This document shows positions 1,081 through 24,059 of a stretch of DNA of 64,000 bases, in pieces (positions within the stretch are counted from its first letter, which is position 1; every line of letters begins with the position of its first letter). Location: NCBI RefSeq assembly GCF_000284515.1, contig NC_017668.1, positions 3,720,001-3,784,000 on the forward strand. The letters run 5' to 3'. This DNA comes from Halobacillus halophilus DSM 2266. GTDB taxonomy: Bacteria > Bacillota > Bacilli > Bacillales > Halobacillaceae. The notes beneath the pieces are model-generated. The model made no database searches and was not told the origin of the DNA. It saw only the letters and a program-made list of their open reading frames with translations. Made by a program: the position numbers and the translations under genes.

Positions 1081-1828
1081 AGCTCCCATTACTTGAAGAC
1101 TCAGTTTCGAGATAAATCGGGTCCTTTGCCAAAAAAGGGGAAGGCGGCTACGGAAACAACTCGCTTTCCTGCGGGGGAACTGGCAAGCCTCCGCGGTCGT
1201 TTCACTCCCTGTGGGGTCTCGCCTAGCTCCTTCTCCCGCGGGAGTCTCGTCGTTTCCTCCGCCACCCCAACGACCTCTAGTGAACGGACCCTTACAATAG
1301 GAGACAGGAACCATACTGTATCTGCCTCAAATGCTTCTAGTAAGGGTTGCTACACGCAAACAAACAACCAAAACCAGGGGTGGATTATAGATGCTCCTTG
1401 GTCATTGGAAGGCGATTATGCAGAGATTTCGGACTCTCCATGATTGCAAAGGGGCGGAAGGGAACGGCGAAGACTCCTAGGTTAAAAGCGGAAGCACCTT
1501 GGTTAGCGGCGTATGGACTGGACTGAGCTGGCGGAGATAAAGAAAACACGAAGAGCGGAGCGATTCGATGTTGCCTTATCGTACAGAAGTGAGGGAAGTC
1601 TCACTAGACGCTAGGTGCTGGAGCTGGATAGCACTCCATATCGTTTATGTTCTGATATTTGATTAAGATTAAAAAAGTGTAAGAACGGGATGAACATGAT
1701 CGGTGAGATCCCGGAAGGCGTAGCCTGAGGAAGCTCACCACATGCCCACGGAAAGCGAGCCGTTCCCTGGAGCCACTTCTCCATCCAATTTCTCGAAACT
1801 GAGTCTTCAACTAAACGGCCCTATAGCT
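1081..1828 (-). repeat. Repeat element A (large modular non-coding repeat, reversed)
   Basis: About 750 bp bounded by inverted ends carrying GAAGACTCAGTTTCGAGA (left) and its complement (right). The outer flanks differ: an R end (AGCTCCCATTA) at 1081 and an L end (GGCCCTATAGCT) near 1816-1828. No credible coding sequence lies inside; open frames exist but have no homology or ribosome sites. It carries module M3 (about 1478-1686), which is also present in elements C and D. It has empty versions of sites filled elsewhere: palindrome CTCCCGCGGGAG at 1233-1244 and GGAAACAACTCGCTTTCC at 1152-1169. Read from its L end it runs on the minus strand, opposite to C and D. The L end lies about 55 bp from the cls terminator. 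Confidence 0.85.
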
Positions 1829-1875
1829 TAATAAGTATTTTATGAAAAATCAGCCATAACGTTTATTGGAAAGAA

Positions 1876-1915
1876 ATAAAAAACCAACAGCCCCTCGCAT
1901 GCAAGGGGCTGTTGG
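1876..1915 (-). terminator. Terminator of cls
   Basis: A 12-bp stem (1884-1895 with 1904-1915, CCAACAGCCCCT / AGGGGCTGTTGG) is followed on the minus strand by TTTTTTATTTC. It lies 30 bp past the cls stop codon. Confidence 0.9.
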
Positions 1916-1945
1916 TCGATTCTTATCTATATAATCCGTGCAGAC

Positions 1946-3388
1946 TTATAATATTGGGGAAAGCAGCCTCGCAATAGCCTCCTTGAAGCGAATCCATTTG
2001 GAGCGCGATTGATATAACTTACTCGTAAGCTCGGTAGATTCGGTTAAATCTTCATGAAAACGATCGCTTAAAGCCTTGGCAATATTCGGATGGTAAACAA
2101 AAGCATTCGCTTCAAAGTTCAAACGGAAACTTCGCACATCAATATTAGCGGTACCGACAGAAGCAATATTACCATCCACTACAATAGTTTTAGCGTGTAA
2201 AAAGCCTTTTTGATAAATATAGATTTTTGCGCCTGCATTCAGCATGTCCCCTATATTAGAAAATGTAGCCCAATAAACAAAAGGATGATCTGGCTTATTT
2301 GGGATCATAATTCGAACATCCACACCTGAAAGCACCGCTATTCTAAGGGCATCGAGAAGACTGTCATCTGGTATGAAATAAGGGGTCTGGACGTACACAT
2401 ACTCTTTTGCGGACAAAATCATTTTAATGTATCCGTGTTTAATCTGTTCCCATTCCGAGTCAGGTCCGCTGGAAACGATCTGAACTCCCGTGCTTCCCTT
2501 TGGTTCCGCCTGATAATATCGATCTTCGTAAACAATGTCTTTTCTTGAAGCCTGGTTCCAGTCAAGAATAAATCTGGTCTGCATGTTACTGACCGCATTC
2601 CCTTCGACCCTCAAATGGGTGTCTCTCCAGTAACCGAACCTTTTGTTAAAACCTAAATATTCATCCCCGATATTAAATCCGCCAATATAACCTATTTTCC
2701 CGTCTATTATGGCTAATTTACGATGATTACGGTAATTTATTTTCAGGTTCACTTTTGGAATAAAAGAAGGAAAAAAAGATTCTACTTCAACCCCGGCATC
2801 CCTTAGTCTTTTTACGAACTTCCTTTTAAGTAATCTAGAGCCCATGTCATCATACAGAAGCTTCACTTCTACATTCTCTTGAGCTTTTCGTATCAATACG
2901 TCGGCCAGGCGGGTACCCAGTTTATCATCCCTCACAATATAATAAAGCAAGTGAATATGGTCTTGAGCACTTTCAATATCCTGAATCAGAGCATGGAACT
3001 TTTTTTGTCCATCCGTAAATACTTCTACTTCATTATTATCTGAATAAAGAGCATCATTATTTTTTAAATGTAAGTAAATAAGATCTTCATATGGAACAAT
3101 ATCCGGATGGTTGATTTCTAAACGGCCTTCTTTTATAGCTTGCAGCTGATCCTGTACAGCGGCTAACAACCCCAAACGGCTCTTCTTATCCCATGTAAAT
3201 ATTTCTTTATTACTTAAGCGTCTTCCAAAAATTAAATAAAATATAAATCCTGCTATAGGTAAAAACAAAAGCACCATCAACCAGGCCCATGTGGCACTTG
3301 CATCCCTGCGCTCTAAAAAGATGATGGCTAAAGCCAAGAGGACGTTTAAACCTAATATAATACTTAAAATATATGGGATAATATTCAC
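1946..3388 (-). CDS. cls: Cardiolipin synthase
   Basis: Condenses two phosphatidylglycerol molecules to cardiolipin at the membrane. The protein has about 480 residues, normal for the bacterial ClsA type. Two N-terminal membrane helices (residues about 5-60) precede two phospholipase-D HKD motifs: HRKLAIIDG near residue 222 and HAKTIVVDG near residue 400, each followed by a conserved Gly/Asn region. I chose the GTG at 3388 because AAGGTGG sits 8 bases before it; GTG codons at 3397 and 3400 overlap that ribosome site. Cardiolipin synthases matter in salt-stressed Bacillaceae, so this fits a halotolerant host, but that link is inference. The terminator is at 1876-1915. niaR lies upstream on the same strand after 130 bp. 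Confidence 0.95.
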   Translation of the reverse strand: MNIIPYILSIILGLNVLLALAIIFLERRDASATWAWLMVLLFLPIAGFIFYLIFGRRLSNKEIFTWDKKSRLGLLAAVQDQLQAIKEGRLEINHPDIVPYEDLIYLHLKNNDALYSDNNEVEVFTDGQKKFHALIQDIESAQDHIHLLYYIVRDDKLGTRLADVLIRKAQENVEVKLLYDDMGSRLLKRKFVKRLRDAGVEVESFFPSFIPKVNLKINYRNHRKLAIIDGKIGYIGGFNIGDEYLGFNKRFGYWRDTHLRVEGNAVSNMQTRFILDWNQASRKDIVYEDRYYQAEPKGSTGVQIVSSGPDSEWEQIKHGYIKMILSAKEYVYVQTPYFIPDDSLLDALRIAVLSGVDVRIMIPNKPDHPFVYWATFSNIGDMLNAGAKIYIYQKGFLHAKTIVVDGNIASVGTANIDVRSFRLNFEANAFVYHPNIAKALSDRFHEDLTESTELTSKLYQSRSKWIRFKEAIARLLSPIL

Positions 3389-3517
3389 TTGGTTCACCAC
3401 CTTTTTTCGTCAAAAACCATTGCTCATCAACTATATCATATTTGGATTTATTCACTATACGAAAAAGAGATATGCTGATCACACTCTAAGCATACCTCTT
3501 TTCCTTGTATATCCACA

Positions 3518-4081
3518 TTAATTTTTCATTAAAATGCCCGCTTGCCATAGAGCCTCTTCAGCTTCATCTAGTGCTTCCCTGCTGTCTGCTGAGATCGTGT
3601 GGGTATGAATGCCATCGGTCAATTCCAACAGAAATGAGGCATTTGTAGATTGGACCTCGTCAATAAATTTCTTAACATCACGCCGATTTGAAATTCTAAG
3701 CTGGGCAGTTAAATCTCCGTAGATGGGATGCTCTACTACGACTTCGTATACATGCACTCCATGATCTACAAGAATATTAAGCTCCTCTTCCGTTTGCTCT
3801 GCGTTATGCTGACATACAATGGTCCTTTGATAAGCCAGACTTTCCTTGTTATCGGTCATATACATATAGCCCTGACTCGTAGCTACTATGGGTTCATTCC
3901 TTGCTTTAAGTAAAGAAACGTCCCCTACAATGACTTGCCTTGTAACGTTCATCTCTTCTGCAAGAGAACTACCAGTAATGGGCTCTTTTGTCTGCTTCAA
4001 TAAGGATAAAATATGCTCTCTTCTCTCACTTGCTTTCATTTTCTTAGAGGATGGGCTCATATAGACGGCTCCTTCATGCAA
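3518..4081 (-). CDS. niaR: NiaR-type niacin-responsive transcriptional repressor
   Basis: Protein of 187 residues, close to the family length (about 180 in B. subtilis NiaR/YrxA). An N-terminal helix-turn-helix (residues about 18-75, with VTRQVIVGDVSLL) is followed by a 3H domain with spaced histidines in the motifs VEHPIYGDL and DGIHTHTIS. Known members repress NAD biosynthesis and niacin uptake genes when nicotinate is bound. An ATG eight codons in is a possible alternative start. It lies 54 bp after sacA on the same strand. The only NAD-related gene seen in this window is the nicotinamidase at 63116-63664. Confidence 0.85.
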   Translation of the reverse strand: MHEGAVYMSPSSKKMKASERREHILSLLKQTKEPITGSSLAEEMNVTRQVIVGDVSLLKARNEPIVATSQGYMYMTDNKESLAYQRTIVCQHNAEQTEEELNILVDHGVHVYEVVVEHPIYGDLTAQLRISNRRDVKKFIDEVQSTNASFLLELTDGIHTHTISADSREALDEAEEALWQAGILMKN

Positions 4082-4135
4082 TCTTCGTTTTCTTATTGTA
4101 GCATAAGTTAAACTTTCACTGGTAGAGCTTCAAAA

Positions 4136-5596
4136 TTATGAAAATGTAAAGCCGCTCAGCTTCCATTGCTCAATGGAAAAGCTGCTTTCTCCAAGTGAAG
4201 TGAAGAGAATATCTTCTTCTTCAGGCTGAGGAAATATCCTTGAAGTGAAAACTTCCTCTCCATTATTCACAAAGATTTCAAGGGCAGACTGATCAATAAA
4301 TAAATGTAGATTTCTTAGTCCTTGTGGAAGCTCTACTCTGCGGAATTCCGTCTTTTCCCTATTTTCCAGATGCGGTCTGGATAAGGTAAGGATTCCATCT
4401 TTATAACTAATAGCAGCATACTGAAATAATTCAACAGCAAATTGATCTTCAATCTGTTCAAATTCGAGATTCAGTTCTGTTGCTCTTCCTCCAATACCTC
4501 GCACGGCTTTTTGATCATTTTCAATCGTAATAGAAGCATGGATAAGAGCCGGTCCTCTCATCTCCTTCAGCTCATTAACTGGTTTCTGGATAATTTGCTC
4601 CCCATTCCAGGTCAGTTCCCTCGGCAGTGTTAAACAATGAACCCACTGCTTCTCTACAGTAGGGTGTGCTTGTTCATACTGGTCAGGGACACCCATCCAG
4701 CCAATAAGAATTCGGCGGCCCTGCTCATCCAAAGTTGTCTGGGGAGCATAGAATTCAAAACCACGGTCCAGTTCATGGAAAGAACCATGTTCAAGCTTAG
4801 GCTTTTCATAATTAAGTTTCCCAGCGAAGTATCCACTTTGATACGTATTGGCGTAGTTCATTCCTTCCTCTTCTAAGCCTTGAGGAGAAACCATTAATAT
4901 ATCCTGATCTCCGAGCTCAAAAATGTCGGGGCATTCCCACATAAAACCGAATTCATCAAGGTTGTTTTCCAAACTTCCTGTAACAGGGCCGAGGTGTTTC
5001 CAGTCGTATAAATTTTCTGATTGAAATAAGACAGCTTTTCCTTGGAGGTCTTTACTTTGAGCTCCAATTACCATGTACCAGTGCTCTCCATTTTTCCACA
5101 CTTTAGGATCTCTAAAATGAGCTGTGTACCCTTCTGGAAGTTCAGCAATTACTCCCTGCTTTTCAAAGTTTACACCATCATCTGACACGGCAAGACATTG
5201 ATAAGCCTCACGATTTCCTTCTTCATCCTTTACATTCCCTGTATAGAATAAATAGAGCCGATCATTGTGAGAAACTGCACTGCCTGAATAGACACCATTT
5301 TTGTCATACCAGTCAGAAGGAGTTAAAGCTATATCTTCATGTACCCAGTTAACAAAGTCTTTCGAAGTGTAATGTCCCCAAAATTTCGCTCCATGGCCTG
5401 TATCAAAAGGCATCCACTGATAAAATAAATGATACGTCCCCTTCCATTGAACAAACCCGTTTGGATCATTCAGAAGCCCAACCGGCGGCATGTGATGGAA
5501 GAGCAGACGGTATGGATCAGACTCTACCTCTTCTTTATACTTATCTATTTCTGCTGCTGCTGCCTGGCGCAGTTCCTGATCTCTTTCAGCCATCAA
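4136..5596 (-). CDS. sacA: Sucrose-6-phosphate hydrolase (GH32)
   Basis: Cleaves sucrose-6-phosphate to glucose-6-phosphate and fructose in the cytoplasm. The 486 residues match the family length. The five-bladed propeller begins near residue 34 with LLNDPNGFVQW, whose Asp44 is the nucleophile. FRDPKVW (stabilising Asp) and WECPDIF (acid/base Glu) follow near residues 160 and 220. The C-terminal beta-sandwich ends in the FTSRIFP region. No signal peptide is present, as expected for the phosphorylated substrate. The start lies 9 bp downstream of fructokinase, so the two are almost certainly co-transcribed. No sucrose-specific EIIBC is present in this window. Confidence 0.95.
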   Translation of the reverse strand: MMAERDQELRQAAAAEIDKYKEEVESDPYRLLFHHMPPVGLLNDPNGFVQWKGTYHLFYQWMPFDTGHGAKFWGHYTSKDFVNWVHEDIALTPSDWYDKNGVYSGSAVSHNDRLYLFYTGNVKDEEGNREAYQCLAVSDDGVNFEKQGVIAELPEGYTAHFRDPKVWKNGEHWYMVIGAQSKDLQGKAVLFQSENLYDWKHLGPVTGSLENNLDEFGFMWECPDIFELGDQDILMVSPQGLEEEGMNYANTYQSGYFAGKLNYEKPKLEHGSFHELDRGFEFYAPQTTLDEQGRRILIGWMGVPDQYEQAHPTVEKQWVHCLTLPRELTWNGEQIIQKPVNELKEMRGPALIHASITIENDQKAVRGIGGRATELNLEFEQIEDQFAVELFQYAAISYKDGILTLSRPHLENREKTEFRRVELPQGLRNLHLFIDQSALEIFVNNGEEVFTSRIFPQPEEEDILFTSLGESSFSIEQWKLSGFTFS

Positions 5597-5605
5597 AAAA
5601 TCCTC

Positions 5606-6547
5606 CTAATTCAAATAATCCTCAACTTCTTTTTTTGTAGGTAAAGCGGTCATTGCTCCTTTTGTTGAAGCAGCCAAAGCTCCTGATACGCTTGCAAAAC
5701 GAGTGATGTCTTCCAATTCTTTTAACGACAGCTGTTCAACCGTACCATGCTCACTCAGTTGGTACAGCAATCCAGAAACAAAGGCATCTCCAGCTCCTGT
5801 CGTATCTACTGATTCGACTTTCATAGCAGGGACCTGAGTATGACCTTCCGCTATATAAACGTGACTTCCCAGCGCTCCAAGTGTTACGTAAAGGACAGGA
5901 ATATCATACTTTTGTAATTTTTCCACACCCATTTCAATATCAGATTCCCCAGTTAGAAACTCCAGTTCTTCTTCTGATATTTTAACGAGGTCTGCTTCAC
6001 CCATCATGGATAGAATGGTTTCTCTTGCTTTTTCTTCTGAACTCCATAACCCCAGTCGCAGATTGGGATCATAAGAAACCATCAATCCTTTTTCTCTCGC
6101 CTTCTTTACCGCAGTTTTGGTTGCTGTTTTAGAAGGTTCATCTATCATGGAGATCGAACCAAAGTGAAGCACATTGTGGTTCTCAAATATTGCTTCATCT
6201 ACTTCCGACTCTTCAAGAAAACGATCAGCGCTCGGATTGATATAAAAATCAAAGCTGCGTTCGCCTGACTGGTCCAGTGTAACAAAAACGACGCCCGTAC
6301 GCGTATCTTGTGTTAAATACATATATTCTGTACTGACCCCGTAATCATTCAGGGTCTTTTTCAGGAACTTACCGAGTACATCATCTCCTACTTTACCTAG
6401 AAATGAAGATCTAGCTCCTAAACGGGCTAGTCCAACGGCTACGTTTGCTGGAGCTCCTCCGGGACTCTTTTGAAAGTTAATATTTTCATTATCTAGTGGT
6501 ATGAAGTCGATTAAAGCTTCTCCAAGAGTAATAACACCTTTATTCAA
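5606..6547 (-). CDS. scrK: Fructokinase (PfkB family)
   Basis: Phosphorylates the fructose released from sucrose-6-phosphate by the neighbouring SacA. PfkB signatures are the N-terminal ITLGEALIDFIP, the substrate-binding GGAPANVAVGLARLG near residue 35, and DTTGAGDAFVSGLLY near residue 245 with the catalytic Asp. I chose the TTG at 6547, about 7 bases after AAAGGGCG, giving 313 residues as usual. A longer open frame to 6610 lacks a ribosome site and adds non-conserved sequence. sacA follows after 9 bp. A terminator at 6686-6712 separates this gene from the EIIA gene upstream. Confidence 0.92.
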   Translation of the reverse strand: MNKGVITLGEALIDFIPLDNENINFQKSPGGAPANVAVGLARLGARSSFLGKVGDDVLGKFLKKTLNDYGVSTEYMYLTQDTRTGVVFVTLDQSGERSFDFYINPSADRFLEESEVDEAIFENHNVLHFGSISMIDEPSKTATKTAVKKAREKGLMVSYDPNLRLGLWSSEEKARETILSMMGEADLVKISEEELEFLTGESDIEMGVEKLQKYDIPVLYVTLGALGSHVYIAEGHTQVPAMKVESVDTTGAGDAFVSGLLYQLSEHGTVEQLSLKELEDITRFASVSGALAASTKGAMTALPTKKEVEDYLN

Positions 6548-6685
6548 TATAAGCACGCCCTTTCTGTATATAAAAAAGACCAGGTTCTTCCATTCACTCC
6601 CCTGATCCAATCTTTTAATTATTATACCTTCAATTCTGCCTTTCTTTCCATTCTCTCATTAATAAATTCAAGTATATACATAAAA

Positions 6686-6712
6686 AAACCTAAAGCAAAG
6701 TGCTTTAGGTTT
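6686..6712 (-). terminator. Terminator of the EIIA gene
   Basis: Perfect 12-bp stem (6686-6697 with 6701-6712, AAACCTAAAGCA / TGCTTTAGGTTT) followed by TTTTATG on the minus strand, 13 bp past the EIIA stop. Confidence 0.9.
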
Positions 6713-6724
6713 TAGTCGATGTTC

Positions 6725-7219
6725 TTATTTTGTTTGAAGAGTTGCTATTTTTGTTTCTCCTGCACTTGCCGTGTCAGAATAAGAAGGATCAAAGCTCTCA
6801 ACAGCATCATCAAAGTTCGTAATAATTACGGGTGTGATAGAACTTTTGGCTTTCTCCTCTACAAGTTGAGGGTCGAATGTGATGAGGTGATCTCCAGCAT
6901 TCACTTTGTCACCAGTTTTTACATGACCTTCGAAGCCTTCACCTTCCATACTAACGGTTTCCAGTCCAATATGAACTAACACTTCCACACCTGATTTCGT
7001 TTTAATTCCAACGGCGTGGTTGGTAGGGAAGATTTGTACGATCTCCCCACTAATTGGGCTGACTACTTTTCCATCTGTAGGCTGAATCGCAACACCATCA
7101 CCCATCATGCGCTGACTGAATACAGGATCATCTACTTCGTCCAATGAAACAACTTTTCCGTTCAATGGAGCAACTAATTCTTCCTCTACACTTTTTTTAC
7201 CAAATAAATTCTTTAACAA
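6725..7219 (-). CDS. PTS glucose-family EIIA protein, stand-alone
   Basis: Soluble phosphocarrier of the PTS glucose superfamily, passing phosphate from HPr to an EIIB domain. The 164 residues form one EIIA-Glc domain. The two active-site histidines are present: His68 in FPTNHAVGIK and His83 in LVHIGLETVSMEG. I chose the TTG at 7219 because GGAAGGGTG lies just upstream. Its context, ahead of scrK-sacA, suggests service to sucrose uptake, but it has its own terminator. It could also serve the trehalose permease at 60380-61789, whose operon EIIA is broken; cross-service by a glucose-type EIIA is known for B. subtilis TreP. Confidence 0.9.
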   Translation of the reverse strand: MLKNLFGKKSVEEELVAPLNGKVVSLDEVDDPVFSQRMMGDGVAIQPTDGKVVSPISGEIVQIFPTNHAVGIKTKSGVEVLVHIGLETVSMEGEGFEGHVKTGDKVNAGDHLITFDPQLVEEKAKSSITPVIITNFDDAVESFDPSYSDTASAGETKIATLQTK

Positions 7220-7396
7220 TATCTTCACCCTTCCTTTACCGAATAAAAATACTTTCTCATTATACAATTGGTAGTCTACTATTGAAAGTGAAGCTAATTG
7301 TATTTTTCCCTAGATTACTATCAATAAACTCATCATTGAACTTTCATCAAAAAAAAGCTTTTAAAACTTTAATATAATAAGCGAATTAATAAACTA

Positions 7397-8178
7397 AAGG
7401 GCTGGATTGTGGAAGACTCGATTTCGAGATGATTGATTATGCTGAAGGTCCTGCGGGGGACGATTCGCTTTCCGGCCCTGCACGACGCAGGGTCGTTCGA
7501 CGTTGCCACACGACGTGGCGATCTTAGTCGAACATCCCATGTGCTGAGCCTCCTCGAGCAAGCTCTCCGGGGTCTCACCGATCATGTTTATCCCACAGGA
7601 GTCTTCATCGTCCCCCTCCGGACCTTGCCAAATCAGAAGCTCGAAACCCCTCCAAACACCACCTGCGTGATGAGGAATTAGACCATGTGGTTCTGTACCT
7701 ATTTCAGGATATAACGATCCGCAATAGCCTGTCATAAAAGCATTTAATACAGATTAAGGAAGAGAATCTTTCTCTTCTGGAAGGGTACGTTTTTATTAAT
7801 CATGTTGGGTTGGTGGGGAGATGGCGAGACTCCCATAGGAGAAGGGACTAGGTGAGATCCCGCAGGAAGTGAAACGAGCGAGGAAGCTCATGGTAAAAAG
7901 GAGGATCGACTAAAGTCGCCACATCCTGTGGCAACGTCGATCGACCCTACGTCGTGTAGGGCCATAGGAAAGTGTCCAAATGTGGAATCACCCCGATAGA
8001 CACGAACAGCATAAGCCGAGCATCAAAAGGACGGTGGTCTTTCCGTCCGTTGATGAACGGCTTATGTCTCGAGTGTCTGGGTGATGGAACAAGACGAGTT
8101 ATTTCCCCACCAACCCTTATCCACCTAAGGTAACGGACCCATTTATCTCGAAATCAATTCTTCAACTAACGGGAGCTT
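7397..8178 (+). repeat. Repeat element B (large modular non-coding repeat)
   Basis: About 780 bp. The left end (AAGGGCTGGATTGTGGAAGACTC...) and right end (...ATTCTTCAACTAACGGGAGCTTA) match the L and R ends of elements A, C and D with a few changes. It holds two inverted copies of module M4 (7474-7533 and 7904-7963), each made of short GC-rich hairpins with five-base loops. It also holds module M2 (about 7968-8115), a long imperfect hairpin. The M3 site is empty here (CCCACAGGAGTC near 7592-7603). No convincing gene lies inside. The right end is about 35 bp from the terminator of the methionine gamma-lyase gene. Confidence 0.85.
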
Positions 8179-8206
8179 AGCTGGAAGATTAACTGGGGAT
8201 TTGAAA

Positions 8207-13588: not shown

Positions 13589-13760
13589 TTAAAGGCTTTG
13601 GTGAACTACCCACCACTTAATTTCTAACGAAATTTGAAGTGGGGGCTTCTCGGGTCGTAGTTGCTTCTAGTAGCCAACCAAATTTGCCGAGCTAACCCCA
13701 TTGTCCCAACGGTTTATATTATGGAAATTAGGATTACTGATGCTCCGAAAGGAGCCTTTT
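13581..13760 (-). ncRNA. Predicted omega RNA (guide RNA) at the tnpB right end
   Basis: Just 3' of tnpB on the minus strand lies the structured right end typical of IS200/IS605-group tnpB elements. It includes GGGACAATGGGGTTAGC, a GGCTACTAGAAGC segment, CGACCCGAGAAGCCCCCACTT, and a terminal hairpin ending GTGGTGGGTAGTTCAC at 13601. In characterised TnpB systems this end plus adjoining genomic bases is the guide RNA. By that rule the guide would be the 20 bases from 13600 down to 13581, starting CAAAGCC. The 5' boundary is approximate because such RNAs overlap the tnpB 3' end. Confidence 0.65.
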
Positions 13761-15016
13761 TCCTTCTACTTTTATGTTAATAGCCGCGTTCACATCGCGG
13801 TCTTGAATGTGGCCACAAGCGCATTTGTAAGTTCGTATGCTCATTGTTAGTTGTTTATCAATACTACCGCATTTGGAGCACGTTTTAGAGGATGGGAACC
13901 ATTTGCCGACCTTGACAAGCTTCTTTCCAAGCTCTTCGAGCTTGTAAGAAAGAAATGAGGAGAACATTCCCCATCCGTTATCGTGCACGCTTTTGCCGAA
14001 TTTAAGAGCCTTAGACATATCTTTCATGTTAAGGTCTTCAATAGCTATGGCATCAAAGTTATCAGCTAAATCACGGCTCCACTTGTGGCAGAAATCTTTG
14101 CGTTGGTTTGCTACTTTTTCATGTAGCTTCGCTACTTTATTTTTCTGCTTGAACCAACGGTTCGAGCCTTTCTTTCTGCGTGATAACACGCGCTGCTCTT
14201 TGGCTAGTCTATCCTCTGATTGACGGTAGAAACGAGGGTACTTGGCTCTCGTGCCTTCGTTTGCTACAAACAATTCCTTCATAGAATAATCTAGACCAAT
14301 AATATTTTCTGGTTGAACCTCTTTAGGTTCAACTTCGTATTCAGTAAGAATAGAAACATAAATTTTACCTGTCGCAGACATTGAAACCGTGACCGATTTC
14401 AACTTGCTTCCTTCGGGTATTTGTCTATGTTGTTTCAACTTCACCCATTTGAGTTTCGGTAATTTGATATAGCCATCCTGGACCATAATATTTCCGTTAA
14501 CCACATTTGTCGTATAGCTCTTACGAGCTTTACGGCTTTTGTGTTTTGGGAATTTATTTTGACCAGTAAAAAAAGCCTTATAAGCTTTATCCAGGTTCAT
14601 TTGAGTGTTGGCCAAAGCAAGACTATCCACTTCTTTCAAAAAAGGATATTCTTTTTTGTATTTCGCTGGCGTTGGAAACTTCATTTTCTTCAGTTCGCTT
14701 TGGTCATTTTTGTAATCTTCATAAGCTAAAATGCGGTCATCCAGCATTTTGTTGAATATAAAGCGGGCAGAACCGAAGGTTCTTTTAATTAAGTTTAGTT
14801 GCTCAAAATTTGGTTCTGTTTTGAATTTGAAAGCTTTGTTCTTTTTGACCATATCAAATTACCCCCTCTCAACAGAATGTTTGTTCGTAATTCAATAGTA
14901 CCAAAAAATTCTTTGAAAGTCTTTTATTATCAAAAGAAAAACAAAAAAAGAAGCAATTCATCCCCCACCTAAAATGCTAACGCATTTTTGAGGAAGGGGA
15001 CTTCTTGCTAATTTCG
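13601..15016 (-). mobile_element. IS605/IS1341-type element carrying tnpB only
   Basis: A tnpB gene is flanked by an inferred right end at 13601 and a left end near 15016. The left end carries the hairpin pair CCCCTTCCTC...GGTGGGGGATG (about 14961-15005) and a T run. No tnpA is present, so the copy cannot excise unaided unless TnpA is supplied in trans. The five bases outside the left end on the minus strand read TTTAA (15021-15017), plausible as the target-adjacent motif. The boundaries are inferred from family patterns. Confidence 0.7.
13734..14852 (-). CDS. tnpB: TnpB RNA-guided nuclease (IS1341 family)
   Basis: Protein of 372 residues, full family length. The RuvC-like catalytic residues are all present: Asp188 in IIGLDYS, Glu272 in AIEDLNM and Asp353 in DRDVNAAINI. 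The zinc ribbon has Cys325, Cys328, Cys344 and Cys346 (CSKCGS, CACG). No frameshift is visible, so the nuclease looks intact. Known TnpB proteins use the adjoining omega RNA to cut DNA next to a short motif, which favours element retention. It sits between rarD and repeat element C. Confidence 0.93.
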   Translation of the reverse strand: MVKKNKAFKFKTEPNFEQLNLIKRTFGSARFIFNKMLDDRILAYEDYKNDQSELKKMKFPTPAKYKKEYPFLKEVDSLALANTQMNLDKAYKAFFTGQNKFPKHKSRKARKSYTTNVVNGNIMVQDGYIKLPKLKWVKLKQHRQIPEGSKLKSVTVSMSATGKIYVSILTEYEVEPKEVQPENIIGLDYSMKELFVANEGTRAKYPRFYRQSEDRLAKEQRVLSRRKKGSNRWFKQKNKVAKLHEKVANQRKDFCHKWSRDLADNFDAIAIEDLNMKDMSKALKFGKSVHDNGWGMFSSFLSYKLEELGKKLVKVGKWFPSSKTCSKCGSIDKQLTMSIRTYKCACGHIQDRDVNAAINIKVEGKRLLSEHQ

Positions 15017-15058
15017 TTAAATTTTATAATTAATTTTTCATAAGAGACTTATTACACA

Positions 15059-15783
15059 ATAGGGCCGAATAGTTGAAGACTCAGTTTCGAGATATTGATT
15101 TGTAGTTAAGGTCCTGCGGGGGATGATTCGCTTTCCGGGGTCTCACCGATCATGTCTATCCCATTCTTACACTTTTTTAGTCTTACTTGGAAATCAGAAC
15201 ATAAACGACAACGAGAGCTATCCAGCTCCAGCACCTAGCGTCTAGTGAGACTTCCCTCACTTCTGTACGATAAGTCAACATCGAATCGCTACGCTCTTCG
15301 TGTTTCCTTTATCTCCACCAGCTCAGTCCAGTCCATACGCCGCTGACCAAGGTGCTTCCGCTTTTAACCTAGGAGTCTTCATCCTCCCCTCCGGACCTTG
15401 CTGAAATGAGAGGCTCGAAACATTGGCAAAAATAACTTGGATTGGAAATTTAAAAATCGTGCCATGAGTCCTGTTTTCTCGAGGTATTGTTAGAAAAGGC
15501 CTGGTACCACTGGATAAAAAAAAGGATCAAGTCCAACACCTGTACTTCTAAAGAAGGGCCCGTTCCCCCATAGGAAAGTGTTCAAATGTGGAATCACCCC
15601 GAAAGACACGACCAGCATAAGCCGAGCATCAAAAGGATGGTGGTTTTTCCGTCCGTTGATGAACGGCTTATGCTGGTCGTGTCTGGGTGATGGAACAAGA
15701 CGAGTTATTTCCCCACCAGCCCTCTTCGACATAGAGTAATGGACCCAATTTATCTCGAAACTGAGTCTTCAAGTAATGGGAGA
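15059..15783 (+). repeat. Repeat element C (large modular non-coding repeat)
   Basis: About 725 bp with L end (AGGGCCGAATAGTTGAAGACTC) at left and R end (GAGTCTTCAAGTAATGGGAG) at right. It contains module M3 in inverted orientation (about 15163-15372) and module M2 (15569-15720). M2 here has its most complete stem: 20 perfect pairs between the segments starting GACACGACCAGC (15605) and ending GGTCGTGTC (15683). No gene is evident; the one long open frame lies within M2. The R end is about 35 bp from the terminator of the gene at 15884, and the L end is about 40 bp from the tnpB element. Confidence 0.85.
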
Positions 15784-15819
15784 TTAACCTTAAAATCAAC
15801 TCGGAAGTTTAACAGATCC

Positions 15820-15872
15820 AATCATAAAAAAGACGGTACCTCAAATTTGCAGGTGCCGTCTTTTTTATGATT
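15820..15872 (-). terminator. Long terminator after the 15884-16849 gene
   Basis: A 21-bp stem (15820-15840 with 15852-15872) with one mismatch, A-rich on one arm and T-rich on the other, so it could act in both directions. Confidence 0.9.
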
Positions 15873-17503: not shown

Positions 17504-17694
17504 ACCTTAATATAGACCAGCTATCGTTGGCGACTGGTCATTGGTCCTACGAGAAATTCTTTTTAATCAAAGAATTCAACGTAGATTTCACTGGCCTTGT
17601 CTAAATCGCCTAAGGTGCAAGTCATCATTTCCAGACGAAACTACTCAAATTCCTATACAGTTAAACCCCCACAAACAGCCAAGGAGCAGTGAAA

Positions 17695-18540
17695 ATGGAT
17701 CAGAAATCAATTCACATCATTGAACACTCAATAAAGTTATTTGCAAAAAAAGGTTTTAGCTCCACTTCCGTTCAGGAAATAGCTAATGAATGCGGCATTT
17801 CAAAAGGTGCTTTTTATTTACACTTCAAATCAAAAGATGCTCTTTTACTGGAAATATTTAATTATTACTTCCAAAATATACAGAAAAAGACGGACGCTAT
17901 CCAGTCCCTTGATTTAGAACCAAGAGCTAAGTTTATGAAACAAATGACCGTCACATTTCAGGAAATTGCCGAACATAGAGAGTTTATTATTATGCAGATC
18001 AGAGAGCAGGCAATCCCTTTTAATGACAACATAGAAGCTTTCCTCACTCAAATGCGCTTCAATTCATACTTGTTTTACAAAAGGCATCTTCTTTCCATTT
18101 ACGGTAAAGAAATCGATTCAGCTATCTGGGAAGTAAGCCTTCTGCTTCAAGGTATATTTAAAGCATTTTTAGATTTAATTATTATTGAGAATGTCCAAAT
18201 GGACGTAGAAGAGCTATCTCACGCCATGCTAAGGCGAATGGATTTTATTGTGGACGGGTTTAAACATAGCGGGGATGAGCCGATCATTACTGAAGAACTT
18301 ATGAGCGGTCTTATTCCTAAAGAATTTTTTCATCATGAACTAGATGAAATTATCGATACCCTGGTTCAATTAAGAGAGTCATCAGATGGAGACATTGAAG
18401 TAACCATTTCCGTTCTACTGGATGAAATACAGAAAATGGAGCCACGACCGGCTATCCTAAAAGGAATGTTAGCTAATTTAGAAGGACTGCAACCCTACCA
18501 GGGAATTGCTGGACAAATCCGAACGTTTTTTCAACTATAG
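17695..18540 (+). CDS. TetR-family transcriptional regulator
   Basis: Protein of 281 residues. The N-terminal TetR helix-turn-helix (residues about 5-55) contains SVQEIANECGISKGAFYLHFKSKDALL. The C-terminal ligand domain of about 220 residues is longer than the usual 130-150, with an extra acidic tail after residue 200. The ATG at 17695 follows AAGGAG by eight bases. The ligand and targets cannot be told from sequence. The convergent operon at 18588-20306 shares its bidirectional terminator. Confidence 0.88.
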   Translation: MDQKSIHIIEHSIKLFAKKGFSSTSVQEIANECGISKGAFYLHFKSKDALLLEIFNYYFQNIQKKTDAIQSLDLEPRAKFMKQMTVTFQEIAEHREFIIMQIREQAIPFNDNIEAFLTQMRFNSYLFYKRHLLSIYGKEIDSAIWEVSLLLQGIFKAFLDLIIIENVQMDVEELSHAMLRRMDFIVDGFKHSGDEPIITEELMSGLIPKEFFHHELDEIIDTLVQLRESSDGDIEVTISVLLDEIQKMEPRPAILKGMLANLEGLQPYQGIAGQIRTFFQL

Positions 18541-18556
18541 CTTCTTCCCGTATAAG

Positions 18557-18584
18557 AAGACGCCTTCCTGATAGAAGGCGTCTT
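18557..18584. terminator. Bidirectional terminator between convergent genes
   Basis: Perfect 11-bp stem (AAGACGCCTTC 18557-18567 / GAAGGCGTCTT 18574-18584) followed by TATTTA on the plus strand. Confidence 0.85.
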
Positions 18585-18587
18585 TAT

Positions 18588-19052
18588 TTAATGACTTTCA
18601 AATGCTTCGGCTTCTATCACTTCATCCAGAACAGGATAAACAGACTCTACACCATCTTCCGCAACGGAGCAAGCTACACCGAGCGGAGTTTTCCAAAAGG
18701 ATTCCGGAATATAAGGATTTTTAAGTCCTGCCGGTTGAAATAGAGCGCGGTAAATTCGCGACAGATGTTGACTGGTTTCTTGAGGTTCCCTTTCTCTTTC
18801 ACCACGAGCTAATAGAAAAACATAGCGCATGGACTGAAACAAATTGTCGCCAGGCATAAATGTATATTCCTTAAAAAATTTTAACTGTTTCAGAGATTCC
18901 TCTTTTAAACCCGACTTAACAGCAAGATCATCCAAGTGTTCATGCAGATGGTTATAAACCTGCTGAAAGATCCGTCGCTTCTCATCCTGCATCACTTTGT
19001 CCGTGTAAATCTCCTGCAACTTTTCATAAGCCTTATCTTTTGTCCAGCTCAC
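18588..19052 (-). CDS. Hypothetical protein, 154 residues, paired with a flavin monooxygenase-like gene
   Basis: A soluble, helical, charged protein with no family I recognise. It lies 24 bp downstream of the FAD-dependent gene at 19077-20306 on the same strand, and both read into the terminator at 18557-18584, so they form a two-gene operon. The GTG start has AGGTGAT six bases upstream. A role tied to the oxidoreductase partner is inference from position only. Confidence 0.7.
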   Translation of the reverse strand: MSWTKDKAYEKLQEIYTDKVMQDEKRRIFQQVYNHLHEHLDDLAVKSGLKEESLKQLKFFKEYTFMPGDNLFQSMRYVFLLARGEREREPQETSQHLSRIYRALFQPAGLKNPYIPESFWKTPLGVACSVAEDGVESVYPVLDEVIEAEAFESH

Positions 19053-19076
19053 GGCTGCATCACCTCATATTATTAA

Positions 19077-20306
19077 TTATTCCTCTCTTCTTTCCTTCTC
19101 AAATCCAAATTGCACAGCTTCGAGTTCAATCGATTGATGTAAGAGTGGAATATCATCAGAGTCTTCCTTTAAATGGTCAGCGATTTTAGGAACCAGCTTA
19201 TTCCATACCATTGGATTTGCGGCCATAGCTTGAAACAAGGCCATTTCATTACTCGTCCAGCTCCGTAAGCTTTGAATGTAATTCAGAGTTAACTGGAACC
19301 CGGGAAGCAGCTGGGCATCTCTCTTTTCCTGAAAAATTCTCATGACTTCTTCCCAGCTTTCACCTTCTTCATAAAGCTCAATAGACTCTGCTAAAAGAAA
19401 AGCCTGCATAAATGCATCGTTAATGCCAAGGCCTGTACTAGGATCTTTACTGTGGCCGGCATCCCCAAGGAGCGCCCACCCCTTACCGTAGGCCTGTCTA
19501 AAGAAATTCGGCATGCCGGAGGTGCCTATGATTTTCCCTTGTAAAGAAGCTCCTGCTAAGCGCCTTTCCATTCCATAAAGCTGTTTGTACATGGATTCAA
19601 AGTGTGCCTGCGGATCCTTCATCATTGTTTTAAATTCATCTGGATGCACTTCCAGACCAAGACAATCTCTTCCCTGCTCCATTGGAAACAGAAAGCCAAT
19701 TCTTCCTTCGTGTAGAAATATCTCTGTGACAGGTTCGGCAAGTGGCTCTACCCCTTCATAATACCCGTAAAGAACAGGCCGCAGCGCTCCCTGATTGTGA
19801 TACTTCTCTGCAGCTGCCCATTTTGCGACATTGGAGTATTTACCATCCGCACCTACCACTAAATCTCCATAATAAGAAGAACTTCCAAGTTTATGATCCA
19901 CAGAGACTCCGACCACCTTATCACCTTCCCATAGAAGATTGCGAACAGTGGTGGATGGTTGAAAGGAAACACCCTCATATCTTTCCGCTTCTTCTAGAAG
20001 AATGTGATCTAAATGATCGCGTTTAGGAATAATCGTGTAAGAGGATCTGGGTCCTTCGACAAAACTTTGCCCAATGTATGTACGCATCCGGTTAATTTGT
20101 CGTAAACCTTTCGATTCCACTTTATCCAGTACACCGAGCTTCTTTAAATAATCTACATGCGACATGTGATGAGTGGAAAGCGTATCGCTGGGAAATGAGT
20201 TTTTATCCAGGATTAACACGGTTTTCCCAAGCTTACCTAGTTGGATGGCCAGGCTTGAACCGGCCACTCTTGCCCCTACAATGATAACATCAAATCGATC
20301 GTTCAT
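19077..20306 (-). CDS. FAD-dependent monooxygenase/geranylgeranyl-reductase-like oxidoreductase
   Basis: Protein of 409 residues of the PHBH-like flavoprotein fold. It has the N-terminal dinucleotide motif DVIIVGARVAGSSLAIQLGK, the middle DG motif VVGADGKYSNVAKWA near residue 150, and GWALLGDAGHSKDPSTGLG near residue 280, which binds the FAD ribityl chain. The family includes aromatic hydroxylases and polyprenyl reductases and the substrate is unknown. ATG with GGTGAG upstream. It heads an operon with the 154-residue protein. Confidence 0.8.
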   Translation of the reverse strand: MNDRFDVIIVGARVAGSSLAIQLGKLGKTVLILDKNSFPSDTLSTHHMSHVDYLKKLGVLDKVESKGLRQINRMRTYIGQSFVEGPRSSYTIIPKRDHLDHILLEEAERYEGVSFQPSTTVRNLLWEGDKVVGVSVDHKLGSSSYYGDLVVGADGKYSNVAKWAAAEKYHNQGALRPVLYGYYEGVEPLAEPVTEIFLHEGRIGFLFPMEQGRDCLGLEVHPDEFKTMMKDPQAHFESMYKQLYGMERRLAGASLQGKIIGTSGMPNFFRQAYGKGWALLGDAGHSKDPSTGLGINDAFMQAFLLAESIELYEEGESWEEVMRIFQEKRDAQLLPGFQLTLNYIQSLRSWTSNEMALFQAMAANPMVWNKLVPKIADHLKEDSDDIPLLHQSIELEAVQFGFEKERREE

Positions 20307-20471
20307 TATTTCAACTCACCTTTAATTAGTCATTTATTTCATCGTAACGGATACTCACTCAAAAACTCTAGTTTCAGCTTTTGAGAAGATCCTATTCTCT
20401 AGTAAAAGTAGAGGGTGAGAGGGGAAAATGAAATAAGACAGCGCTTATTTCATTAATCTGTACACATCCTA

Positions 20472-21389
20472 TTAAGGCAGCTCATTCCCAGTTGCAGTAT
20501 AGAGTTCATACCATTCTTGTCTGGTTAACTCTATATCAGAGGCCTTTGCTATGTTTCTCATACGCTCTGTGTTCATCGTGCCTACTACAGGCTGAATATT
20601 AGCCGGATGGCGAAGAATCCACGCAATAGCGATGGCTGAATCTGTGACTCCATACTTTTCTGCCAGCTCTTTCAGCTTCGCATTGACTTGTGGGAATTCC
20701 TTATTCCCAACAAATGGACCTTCAATCATCCCGTGTTGAAACGGAGACCAGGCCTGAATGGATATGTCATGTAAACGACAGTACTCTATGATACTTCCAT
20801 CACGCATAATAGCTGGATCGTTTTGCATATTCACATTGAACCCAGCATCAATCATAGGTGTATGTACGACACTTAACTGCATCTGATTCACAATTAAATC
20901 TTCCTTCAAATACTTTTTCAATAGTTCGATCTGCATCGGATTTTGATTACTCACCCCAAAATAGCGTACTTTCCCACTTTCTTTTAACACAGCGAAGGCT
21001 TCAGCCACTTCTTCTGGCTCAAACAAAGCATCCGGGCGGTGCAGTAATAAACTGTCTACATAATCTGTTTTCAGCCGTTTCAGACTGCCTTCCACAGATT
21101 CAAGAATGTGATCTTTGGAAAAATCAAAATATCCATCACGAATGCCGCATTTTGTCTGCAGCTTCATTTTTTCACGAACATCATCATTCATGTCGATCGC
21201 TTCTGCAAAAACAGACTCGGATTCTCCTGCTCCGTAAATATCTGCGTGGTCGAATAAATCGACTCCTGTATCCATCGCATTTTCAATCACATATCGGGCA
21301 TCTTTCTTTTCAAGTTTATTAATCCTCATACAGCCTAAAGAAATTTCCCCAACTTCTAATTCACTTTTACCAAGCTTAAGCTTTTTCAA
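20472..21389 (-). CDS. Aldo/keto reductase (YdhF-like)
   Basis: NAD(P)H-dependent reductase of 305 residues with the TIM-barrel signature. The catalytic tetrad is visible: Asp in DLFDHADIYG near residue 46, Tyr in the same motif, Lys in LQTKCGI near residue 79 and His in LLLHRPD near residue 115. SNQNPMQIELLKK and WILRHPANIQPVVGTMN match the E. coli YdhF-type subgroup. The physiological substrate is unknown. A cre-like site lies about 60 bp upstream. Confidence 0.88.
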   Translation of the reverse strand: MKKLKLGKSELEVGEISLGCMRINKLEKKDARYVIENAMDTGVDLFDHADIYGAGESESVFAEAIDMNDDVREKMKLQTKCGIRDGYFDFSKDHILESVEGSLKRLKTDYVDSLLLHRPDALFEPEEVAEAFAVLKESGKVRYFGVSNQNPMQIELLKKYLKEDLIVNQMQLSVVHTPMIDAGFNVNMQNDPAIMRDGSIIEYCRLHDISIQAWSPFQHGMIEGPFVGNKEFPQVNAKLKELAEKYGVTDSAIAIAWILRHPANIQPVVGTMNTERMRNIAKASDIELTRQEWYELYTATGNELP

Positions 21390-21448
21390 ACTCCCACCTC
21401 TTCCTCATTGAATGGTTTCATCCTAACATTATATTGAAAATAAAGTAA

Positions 21449-21464
21449 TTGAAAACGCTTGTAT
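21449..21464 (-). promoter_or_regulatory. cre-like site upstream of the aldo/keto reductase
   Basis: On the minus strand, ATACAAGCGTTTTCAA matches the cre consensus at 15 of 16 positions; the third base is A instead of G. It lies 60 bp upstream of the start codon. Confidence 0.55.
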
Positions 21465-21495
21465 ATAAGAACCTTAAATCCCCATCATCCAATAA

Positions 21496-21527
21496 AAACC
21501 CCGCTCTAAAAATTTAGAGCGGGGTTT
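21496..21527 (-). terminator. Terminator after the 87-residue protein gene
   Basis: A 15-bp perfect stem (AAACCCCGCTCTAAA / TTTAGAGCGGGGTTT) with a T run (TTTTTATT) on the minus strand. Confidence 0.9.
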
Positions 21528-21539
21528 CATCTTCATCGT

Positions 21540-21803
21540 TTAGCTTTTTTCTTCAATAGGTTCATCAAATAAGTCCGTAAATTTAGCCACATTTTCGTAG
21601 CTGAATTCAAACGCCATTCTTACCTCGCCAAAGCCAGGCTGAAAGAAGTAGCCTTGCACTTCATAACTGCTTTTATTCTCTCTGACTTTAGTAAGATGAA
21701 AATAGCGCTGGATATATTGAGCCATTTCTTCCAGTTTTTTGTTTCGCACCTTTATCCACTGTTCTTTCAGTTCATCTGTGGGAAAGTCCGATTCCTTTAA
21801 CAC
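21540..21803 (-). CDS. Small hypothetical protein, 87 residues, behind a Fur-like box
   Basis: A soluble protein with a predicted helix (residues about 8-35) then beta-rich sequence (YEVQGYFFQPGFGEVRMAFEFSYE). I do not recognise the family. Reading frame, own terminator and a spaced ribosome site (GAGTGATCAAG region) support a real gene. A near-consensus Fur box at 21843-21857 lies 40 bp upstream, which suggests iron or metal control. Confidence 0.7.
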   Translation of the reverse strand: MLKESDFPTDELKEQWIKVRNKKLEEMAQYIQRYFHLTKVRENKSSYEVQGYFFQPGFGEVRMAFEFSYENVAKFTDLFDEPIEEKS

Positions 21804-21842
21804 TTGATCACTCCTCTACGGAAATCAAAGCTCTGAAACTGT

Positions 21843-21857
21843 ATATAATCATTATCA
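21843..21857 (-). promoter_or_regulatory. Fur-box-like operator
   Basis: ATATAATCATTATCA matches the TGATAATNATTATCA Fur core at 13 of 15 positions. It lies 40 bp upstream of the 87-residue protein. PerR or Zur boxes are related alternatives. Confidence 0.5.
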
Positions 21858-22046
21858 TATAAGAGCTTACAGATATTTTCAACTGCTATTCAAGAATAAA
21901 ATTTTGATATACCACGCATTCCTTTCTTATATTTAACACAAATAAAAATGACGGGCAAACTGGATAAGCAGGGAACGGCTATTTTATTCATAGGATACCG
22001 GGCATAAATCTTCTCACCAGTTCTTATATCGGGAGCTGCATGTTGG

Positions 22047-22838
22047 TCATCCGGAAGTTCCCTGTACTTTAGAAAGAAAAGGACGATCGTTGTGCCAGCG
22101 TACTTCTACGTCCAATCCAAAAAAGGAGGAAAGCTGCTGACTGGTAATTATTTTAGTTGTGTCTCCTGCGTTGAAGACTTCTCCTTCTTTAAGCAGTAAA
22201 GTTTTGTGGAAAACCGGAAGAATTTCTTCTACATGATGAGTCACATAAATCATGGTGGGAGCACCTGGTTTTTTTGCAATCTCTTCGATGGATTCTAGTA
22301 ACTTTTCGCGTGCAATAAAATCCAGGCCGTTAGTGGGTTCATCTAGAATTAAGAGAGAAGGATCCGCCATTAATGCTCGTGCAATTAAAACCCGCTGTTT
22401 TTCCCCGCTTGAAAGAGTTTCATAGTTTCGATTAGCATAGTCAATACATCCTAGGTCTTCAAGCAGTGAAATAGCTTTCTGTCTCATGGGGTCCGTAGGG
22501 GTTTCGTAAAGTCCTATGGAAGCAAACGCTCCGCTCAGCACCACTTCAAAAGCATTATCTTCCTGGTGAATCTTCTGCTGAATGGCTGAAGATACAAAAC
22601 CAATCTGTTTACGCAGTCGTTCTGCAAGATAAGTCTTCCCAAATTGCATACCTAATACATTAACTTCGCCCTTTGTTGCAAAGGTGTACGCATTTAGTAA
22701 ATTAAGGATAAACGTTTTCCCAGAACCGTTCAGCCCCAAAAGGACCCAGTGCTGACCTTCTTCAATTTGCCAATTAATATTTTTTAGAATCCATCTGTCT
22801 CCGCGTCTTAAAGATACGTTTTCCATCTCCAGCACCAT
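22047..22838 (-). CDS. ABC transporter ATP-binding protein (YlmA-like)
   Basis: Single nucleotide-binding domain of 263 residues. It has Walker A GLNGSGKT at about 35-42, signature LSSGEKQ, Walker B LLILDEPTNGLD and the switch histidine in YVTHHVEE. No permease gene adjoins it, as with B. subtilis YlmA, so its partner is unknown. ATG with GGGAGTCACATCT upstream. The 296 bp between its start and repeat D are A+T-rich and held no gene or clear signal. Confidence 0.88.
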   Translation of the reverse strand: MVLEMENVSLRRGDRWILKNINWQIEEGQHWVLLGLNGSGKTFILNLLNAYTFATKGEVNVLGMQFGKTYLAERLRKQIGFVSSAIQQKIHQEDNAFEVVLSGAFASIGLYETPTDPMRQKAISLLEDLGCIDYANRNYETLSSGEKQRVLIARALMADPSLLILDEPTNGLDFIAREKLLESIEEIAKKPGAPTMIYVTHHVEEILPVFHKTLLLKEGEVFNAGDTTKIITSQQLSSFFGLDVEVRWHNDRPFLSKVQGTSG

Positions 22839-23134
22839 AGATGTGACTCCCTTCTATCCGACTACTATTTATATGAATTTATGTACGCATAATACCCTGG
22901 CAGGAATTAAATTTCTTTCCTTTTTAACAAAGTCGTTACTCCTTGTTCTGACTGACCTTTTACATAGAGAGACGATTTTCCCAATGGGAAATTTGTAATC
23001 ATAATTATTTCAAAATTCTTTAAAATTAACAAGTCATACCCATACACCAGAATCCCCGATAAGACTCGCCCTCTTCACACATCCTTCACTGATCTAATAA
23101 ATTTAGTTGACGATTTATAATAAAGAGGTTATTG

Positions 23135-24059
23135 AGCTATAGGGCAGTTATCTGTAAAACTCAGGTTCGAGATATTTTGTAGAGAAAGGGTCTCCAGGGA
23201 ACGGCTCGCTTTCCGCGGCCCTGCACGACGCAGGGTCGTTCGACGTTGCCACAGGACGTGGCGGTCTTAGTCGAACATCCCTTGTGGTGAGCTTCCTCAG
23301 GCTTCGCCCTCCGGGATCTCACCGATCATGTTTATCCCGCAGGAGTCTTCGCCGTTCCCTTACGCCCCTTTGCGATCATGGAGAGCTCGAAATTCTATGA
23401 ATAAACACCTTCCAATGAACAAGGATAATCTATAATCTACCCTGATTGTTTACGTGTAGGAACTCTGTTATAGAAGCATTTGAGGCAGATGCAATATGGT
23501 TCCTGTCTCCTATAGCAGGGTCCGTTTACTAGATATCGTTTGGGCGGCGAAGGAAACGACGAGACTCCCAGGTTAAAAGCGGAAGCACCTTGGTCAGCGT
23601 CGTATGGACTGGACTGAGCTGGCGGAGATAAAGAAAACACGAAGAGCGGAGCGATTCGATGTTGCCTTATCGTACAGAAGTGAGGGAAGTCTCACTAGAC
23701 GCTAGGTGCTGGAGCTGGATAGCACTCCACGCCGTTTAGGCATTGGTTTATGATACACCTATCCTGAGTGTAAGAACGGGAGAAGGAGCTAGGAGAGACC
23801 CCACAGGGAGTGAAGCGACCGAGGAGGCTTGCCAGTTCCCCCGTAGGAAAGTGTTCAAATGTGGAATCACCCCGAAAGACACGACCAGCATAAGCCGACC
23901 ATCAAAAGGATTGTGGTTTTTCAATCCGTTGATGAGCGGCTTATGTCTCGAGTGTCTGGGTGATGGAACAAGACGAGTTGTTTTCCGTAGCCGCCCTCAT
24001 CCTTTTTCGGCAACGGACCCGAGTTGTCTCGAAACTGAGTCTTACAGAAACGGGAGCTT
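23135..24059 (+). repeat. Repeat element D (largest modular repeat)
   Basis: About 925 bp from L end (AGCTATAGGGCAGTT) to R end (GAAACTGAGTCTTACAGAAACGGGAGC). It carries M4 (23217-23280), M3 in direct orientation (about 23570-23777) and M2 (23847-23990). Backbone segments between the modules align with element A read in reverse. M3 sits between CTCCC (23565-23569) and GGGAG (23778-23782), exactly where A has an uninterrupted palindrome. The other M3 site, filled in A and C, is empty here (CCCGCAGGAGTC, 23336-23347). No gene is supported inside. Confidence 0.88.

Follow-up and report, generated by a model that had tools for sequence, protein, structure and literature searches.

Modular MITE-like repeats of Halobacillus halophilus: core replacement at fixed places and its probable basis in gene conversion

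The stretch analysed here, called the window below, comprises 64,000 nt of the Halobacillus halophilus DSM 2266 genome (contig NC_017668.1, positions 3,720,001 to 3,784,000) and carries four repeats, elements A to D, together with a truncated fifth copy. Judged by their sequence, the elements are an abundant non-coding family that resembles a miniature inverted-repeat transposable element (MITE) of the ISL3 type and has a modular interior. We regard it as probable that they form a high-copy ISL3-type MITE family whose interiors, the cores, are swapped between fixed places by ectopic gene conversion. Comparison of the copies shows insertion in the manner of a MITE, modular rods whose junctions are fixed, replacement of cores at fixed places and the occurrence of cores in both orientations. 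The repeats stay put and their interior was replaced at all 22 shared loci compared, with flanks about 92% alike. MITEs of modular build are already known, and the exchange of interiors is a new variation on them. Since the sequence reveals the copies and donors as well as the breakpoints and the orientation, ectopic exchange among bacterial repeats becomes directly measurable.

The core, 0.2-1.1 kb long, is bounded by an inner terminal repeat, GAAGACTCAGTTTCGAGA, and holds two inverted rod-like units, REP1 and REP2, with a spacer between them. The optional modules are M2 (128 bp, in REP1), M3 (about 207 bp, in REP1 or REP2), M4 (123 bp, nested in M3 between M3 bases 45 and 46) and a Bacillaceae-1 RNA module, which occupies three sites in the family: in REP1, in REP2 and within M3. 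Genome-wide, the 18-base inner repeat was found 212 times in forward and 220 times in reverse orientation (at most 3 mismatches; reversed control, 0 and 1), and these 432 repeats amount to roughly 215 family copies. The genome itself has 4.17 Mb on 3 contigs; one of its proteins is 98% identical to that of Halobacillus alkaliphilus FP5 and 97% to that of H. halophilus AcN7-4. Our sample from this genome contained 102 elements at first and 125 distinct cores later, the latter being a part of the roughly 215 copies; most BLAST searches within the genome scored 40 of about 265 candidates. The median core length was 570 bp (range 203-1135, 125 cores), and 52 of the 125 cores were module-free by BLAST. 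At least one inner-repeat end (at most 2 mismatches) was present in 42 of 44 genomes of the bacterial family, with none to 355 per genome, and M3 matches in 22 of the 44. M3 gave no match to plasmids, and positions 1-8000 of the window matched plasmids in protein genes only.

Replacement of cores at fixed places

The 22 shared loci (flank identities 83-95%) were compared with two relatives, represented by assemblies G309 and G306, and at none of them was the syntenic interior the best match. For G309, 19 own loci had both flanks on the fetched stretches, and 14 of these a complete element in both genomes; L029, L067, L278, L279 and L283 (5/19) had no complete element in the relative and were excluded from the ranking, as was L038 (1/9) for G306. 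Flank identities with G309 were 82.6-94.8%, mostly 90-95%. The syntenic core was the best match at 0 of 14 loci (rank 29-78 of 125 at 13 loci and rank 3 at one), and the outer arms ranked first of 120 at 13 of the 14. At the fourteenth locus, L089, arm identity was 0.79 with the true partner (in one direction) and 0.49-0.61 with three other G309 elements (four compared). Syntenic cores of G306 were the best match at 0 of 8 loci, with a median rank of 65.5, and at the one locus compared between G309 and G306 the syntenic core ranked 16 of 21. The limit of the exchange is no more than about 15 bp away from the inner repeat: over 26 arms of 13 loci (L089 excluded), ortholog identity was not above paralog identity within this distance and was above it beyond, with 0.77 versus 0.41 at 26-30 bp.

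With some 200 similar repeats and draft assemblies of about 20 and 90 contigs, the differing cores might be assembly chimeras. We consider this highly improbable: the two assemblies agree, the cores average near 80% alike (hosts) and are thus distinct enough to assemble, and identical or near-identical cores lie in different arms within the 3-contig genome itself. There, 32 pairs of distinct cores (120 elements) reached 90% identity or more across 90% of the core length. Eleven core pairs were at least 96.8% identical, with arm identities of 0.50-0.76 and flank identities of 0.45-0.52; for eight of the near-identical pairs, at 97.2-99.4%, the values were 0.52-0.76 in the arms and 0.45-0.50 in the flanks. 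L088 and L089, whose cores were identical across 501 bp, gave 0.60 for the arms and 0.52 for the flanks. The breakpoints of ten recent pairs, placed by eye, were scattered from within the inner repeat to 15-20 bp past it, a scatter that copying limited by shared homology would explain well.

A mechanism regarding this copying may be proposed. Where a long hairpin breaks, another of the approximately 200 copies would serve for the repair, the inverted inner repeats would permit the core to be set in either orientation, and the outer arms would be spared, being too diverged to pair. Module states would be shuffled mainly by core exchange, the first insertion of each module being older; exchange of whole interiors can account for filled and empty sites that differ from copy to copy, with no need for fresh insertion.

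A dedicated site-specific system, either a recombinase or a transposase with gap repair, might instead excise and exchange cores at the inner repeats. The sharp exchange limits beside the inner repeats in the 26 arms, the frequency of both core orientations and the lack of any match to a strict pattern for a core-less dock all speak for such a system, which we nevertheless hold to be unlikely: the breakpoints scatter, some of them within the repeat, the core-less pattern, matched without mismatches, may miss degenerate docks, and the enzymes searched for were those of ISL3. In a slightly more doubtful version, about 200 fixed docks would trade a pool of folded non-coding cassettes via dedicated recombination at the inner repeats, the cassettes being built from mobile, nesting hairpin modules spread across the order (Bacillaceae-1, M3).

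Relative to the outer arms, 62 of 102 cores were in '+' and 40 in '-' orientation. The orientation label was unlike that of G309 at 10 of 14 loci, and at 11 of 14 the best high-scoring segment pair (HSP) was an opposite-strand one; for G306 the latter was so at 2 of 8. Several points weigh against core swapping by ectopic gene conversion. Arms fitted the core's own orientation better in 24 of the 25 pairs listed (of 32); recent copies thus mostly keep orientation, so flips would accumulate over longer times and are less free than the model allows. At 3 of 14 loci the two strains (G309 comparison) have conflicting arm-orientation labels, and an opposite-strand HSP is not necessarily a flip, since REP1 and REP2 are inverted homologues. 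The arm ranking covers a single relative, G309, and both relatives are drafts. The sharp exchange limits count here as well, and a transposase with the exact outer ends was not found, the three resident ISL3 copies sharing GGCTCT only. Finally, we infer ectopic gene conversion itself, the likeliest process, from sequence comparison.

Module junctions and the structure of the rods

The preliminary description of elements A to D, with their filled and empty sites and coordinates, was confirmed. A read in reverse and D have a common backbone (arms 86-95% complementary, M3-bearing stretches 90-93% alike in a repeat search). By direct reading, the palindrome CTCCCGCGGGAG is intact in A, and in D the same place reads CTCCC (23565-23569), 208 bp of M3 and GGGAG (23778-23782). 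A second palindromic site is devoid of a module in D (CCCGCAGGAGTC, 23336-23347) and in B (CCCACAGGAGTC, 7592-7603, where the site is empty as described, with one base unlike the wording given then), and is filled by M3 in A and C; GGAAACAACTCGCTTTCC of A is interrupted by M2 in D. M3 at this second site had been described as lying in the opposite orientation, which is correct with respect to the backbone and incorrect with respect to the rod unit: the two rods, REP1 and REP2, are the same kind of unit in inverted arrangement, and with respect to its unit M3 points the same way at either site.

Filled and empty states and exact junctions were tabulated across the copies, and the junctions of M2 and M3 proved fixed (counted by motif match rather than by element). 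The M2 junction, GGAAAG / CGAG, was filled in 23, empty in 74 and otherwise in 4 of 101 matches. M3 starts after GACTCC and one pyrimidine, stops before GGGA and takes the place of a dinucleotide; its site was filled in 10, empty in 89 and otherwise in 9 of 108 matches in REP1, and filled in 17, empty in 81 and otherwise in 76 of 174 in REP2, where most of the 76 are an unrelated CTTCCTC/CCTCCTC stretch hit by the motif. The REP1 and REP2 labels in these M3 counts were taken from core orientation, which mislabels a few cores (L017, with L284 doubtful). The left junction of M3 is conserved in other genomes of the genus, where the right tail is often shorter, and the left edges of Bacillaceae-1 are less uniform than the M2 and M3 junctions. 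The modules are thus nested at precise, reusable junctions: M2 at one site, M3 at the same position in REP1 and REP2, and M4 and Bacillaceae-1 within M3.

M2 and M3 had been taken for nested insertions into the loops of short hairpins. The nesting at fixed junctions stands; the loops and tips do not. In the aligned empty rods (51 REP1, 46 REP2), 97.8% of the cells were paired, with 10 pairs in REP1 and 16 in REP2 covarying by changes on both sides (slid controls, 0-5). After shuffling of the 3' letters, 94% and 90% of the cells were still paired, since the alignment columns are conserved. M3 replaces columns 43-44/44-45, which are paired with the far arm and lie 30-40 columns off the apical loop (the apical loops are at columns 75-85 and 82-86), so that its site is a paired mid-rod dinucleotide; this dinucleotide covaries with the far arm (REP1, AT 32/GC 16 and TA 32/CG 17; REP2, CG 21/TA 21). 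On the other rod arm, an internal loop forms the site of M2. For Bacillaceae-1, flank pairing at 30 loci of other Bacillales averaged -8.3 kcal/mol versus -9.3 for shuffled and -8.6 for cross-paired flanks, and was better than that of random places in the same 30 loci (-6.4 kcal/mol). As the flanks thus have no advantage over shuffled or cross-paired ones, their pairing may be due to base composition. A hairpin-tip rule, tried as a general rule, was rejected on the rod consensus structures and these 30 loci.

That M2 and M3 are mobile pieces inserting into loops or tips of short hairpins therefore seems rather improbable to us. The exact junctions with filled and empty states at one position would suit it, as would the mixing of M3 bodies between REP1 and REP2, the host rods of which differ up to the junction. 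Bacillaceae-1 likewise uses three sites in this family and has diverse surroundings elsewhere; in L205, L208 and L226 it lies, by eye, at a hairpin apex or close to one, and its flanks passed the 5% quantile of random places, that is, paired strongly, at 5 of the 30 loci versus 1.5 expected. On the other side, the M3 target is a paired, covarying mid-rod position, the Bacillaceae-1 flanks as a set pair no better than their controls, the site-specific tails and shared bodies of M3 fit conversion between filled sites, and tree support for the M3 intermixing is weak.

This intermixing was seen among 39 M3 copies, for which a tree with one REP1 clade was rejected (approximately unbiased test, p=0.005); the starred branches, however, force just 1 change, and the bootstrap is unsettled. 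M3 tails are specific to the site and bodies common to both sites, hence the bodies seem to be exchanged between sites already filled. Identity among modules is 93-96% versus 81% for their hosts. Spreading of the modules by fresh insertion only was considered for this difference and rejected, as host spacers may be less constrained and module conversion explains the identities equally. In other genera (L246, L240, L245, L248), M3-like units also occur without a surrounding rod, singly or in tandem. In the cores of L194 and L196, Bacillaceae-1 within M3 is fused to the REP2 end, as if two Bacillaceae-1 copies had recombined and deleted the intervening piece.

The rods and modules might also be a functional structured RNA (or single-stranded DNA) family under selection, with exchange incidental. 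Compared with shuffles, the rods are more stably folded (z -4.5 and -6.8) and M2 still more so (z -12.2), the rods covary, and Bacillaceae-1 RNA (RF01690) is matched in 147 of 299 genomes of the order. We doubt this explanation: the covariation mostly separates two subfamilies, the conserved columns keep even shuffled letters paired, and M3 folds no better than shuffles (z -0.45; 5' part, z 0.23). Palindromes can covary via hairpin-templated correction, and sequence counts overstate the number of independent events; covariation here consequently indicates pairing, not function.

Outer ends, Bacillaceae-1 and known repeats

The outer ends start GGCTCTGTTAAA..., with a consensus GGCTCTGTTAAACTT.../...AACTTTAACAGAGCC and longer forms GGCTCTGTTAAACTTCCGTGTTGATTTT ... 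AAAATCAACAATAAACTTTAACAGAGCC; the end may also be written GGCTCTGTTAAANTTNNNTGTTGATT. Both ends, as terminal inverted repeats, were recognised in 24 of 102 elements and not in the remainder. In these 24, the 8-bp AT-rich target duplications matched at a mean of 6.5 of 8 bases versus 3.3 when shuffled (maximum 4.6), and 11 of the 24 were perfect. The insertion at L278 is lacking in the relative, the sequence of which is continuous across the site. ISL3-family elements start with GGCTCT and make an 8-bp AT-rich target duplication, and in both traits our elements are like ISL3 insertion sequences (IS) and MITEs. Three resident ISL3 copies (Pfam), starting GGCTCT or GGTTCT, are all bordered by ATTTTTTT on both sides, which makes duplication and element indistinguishable there. 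They differ from the repeats in the ends past GGCTCT, and no transposase gene was seen inside the elements (A to D surveyed for open reading frames); as the ends diverge after GGCTCT, resident ISL3 was rejected as the autonomous partner.

The three Bacillaceae-1 modules of the window score 63.5-69.4 bits for RF01690, above the Rfam gathering threshold of 35. RF01690 has at least 97 places in the genome, a lower bound as 150 of 515 first-look candidates were scored. The inner repeat lies within about 700-800 bp of 96 of the 97 (77/78 in loci fetched for elements, 19/19 in other loci), the single miss lying in a broken element, L192; in a random-place control in the window, it was near 2 of 300. 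Bacillaceae-1 RNA is listed as a non-cis-regulatory RNA candidate (Weinberg 2010, PMC2864571). Unlike that listing, RF01690 in this genome belongs to a mobile repeat as one of its modules and does not stand alone as a gene for a small RNA. Tandem Bacillaceae-1 copies are present in L206 and L219, those of L206 being placed, by eye, inside an M3-like unit, in its hairpin region GTGAG..CTCAC.

Bacterial interspersed mosaic elements (BIMEs) and repetitive extragenic palindromes (REPs) are mosaic palindromic repeats that serve as insertion targets for IS. The family resembles them as a mosaic palindromic repeat, with an IS110-family IS adjoining the outer arm of L194, and differs in that its rods are about 120 nt long, lie within inner repeats and are borne by a MITE. 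The IS is seen as a transposase fragment (PF01548) after that arm (G000:C1:3963100-3964400), with ...CCGGCCCGTTCG joined to TATTATAAGG; such IS may target the repeat arm, since the same junction sequence also borders L073 (right flank).

The nearest described architecture is that of BOX of Streptococcus pneumoniae, which the portion of the report consulted presents as an interspersed, MITE-like modular repeat with target duplications, modules boxA, variable boxB and boxC, predicted stem-loops and a length of 67-637 bp, and in which repeats were found inserted in one another (PMC3049150). As far as architecture is compared, BOX has tandem boxB units, whereas the present elements carry different modules at distinct internal sites, with nesting; exchange of whole interiors between fixed places is not among the BOX features described in that portion. 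Among the open-access papers listed on Bacillaceae-1, Halobacillus halophilus repeats, ISL3 or Bacillus MITEs, palindromic repeats of Bacillaceae, BOX, bcr1 and MITE gene conversion, none named the family, and a MITE review (PMC10969869) makes no mention of Halobacillus, ISL3, Bacillus, mosaic or gene conversion.

Features in the window

Coordinates are collected in Table 1.

Table 1. Repeat elements and their parts, as positions within the 64,000-nt window
Feature	Position	Strand	Remark
Element A, whole	1043..1868	+	outer ends degenerate/approximate
Core of A	1095..1808	+	bounded by inner terminal repeats (GAAGACTCAGTTTCGAGA...TCTCGAAACTGAGTCTTC)
REP1 rod of A, module-free	1143..1263	-	contains CTCCCGCGGGAG (1233-1244) and GGAAACAACTCGCTTTCC (1152-1169); rod structure from alignment and REP1 of another copy
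REP2 rod of A	1451..1773	+	M3 within
M3 in REP2 of A	1479..1686	+	
Element B, whole	7355..8205	-	outer ends degenerate/approximate
Core of B	7412..8163	-	
Bacillaceae-1 module (RF01690) in REP2 of B	7477..7543	-	63.5 bits
Bacillaceae-1 module (RF01690) in REP1 of B	7894..7960	+	69.4 bits
M2 in REP1 of B	7969..8096	+	
Element C, whole	15003..15821	-	outer ends approximate
Core of C	15075..15770	-	
M3 in REP2 of C	15163..15370	-	
M2 in REP1 of C	15575..15702	+	
Element D, whole	23100..24095	-	outer ends approximate
Core of D	23155..24044	-	
Bacillaceae-1 module (RF01690) in REP2 of D	23220..23286	-	68.4 bits
M3 in REP1 of D	23570..23777	+	
M2 in REP1 of D	23848..23975	+	
Fifth copy, truncated	62676..62995	+	REP1 with M2 (62794-62914), one inner repeat, outer arm

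No open reading frame (ORF) of at least 120 aa lies inside A, B or C. One mechanical ORF of 130 aa (23743-24135), with which no family search was made, overlaps D. Near 13590, where loci L111 and L112 bear an element next to a gene, the window keeps just a short end-like remnant. An S-adenosylmethionine (SAM) riboswitch is located at 24483-24592, downstream of element D.

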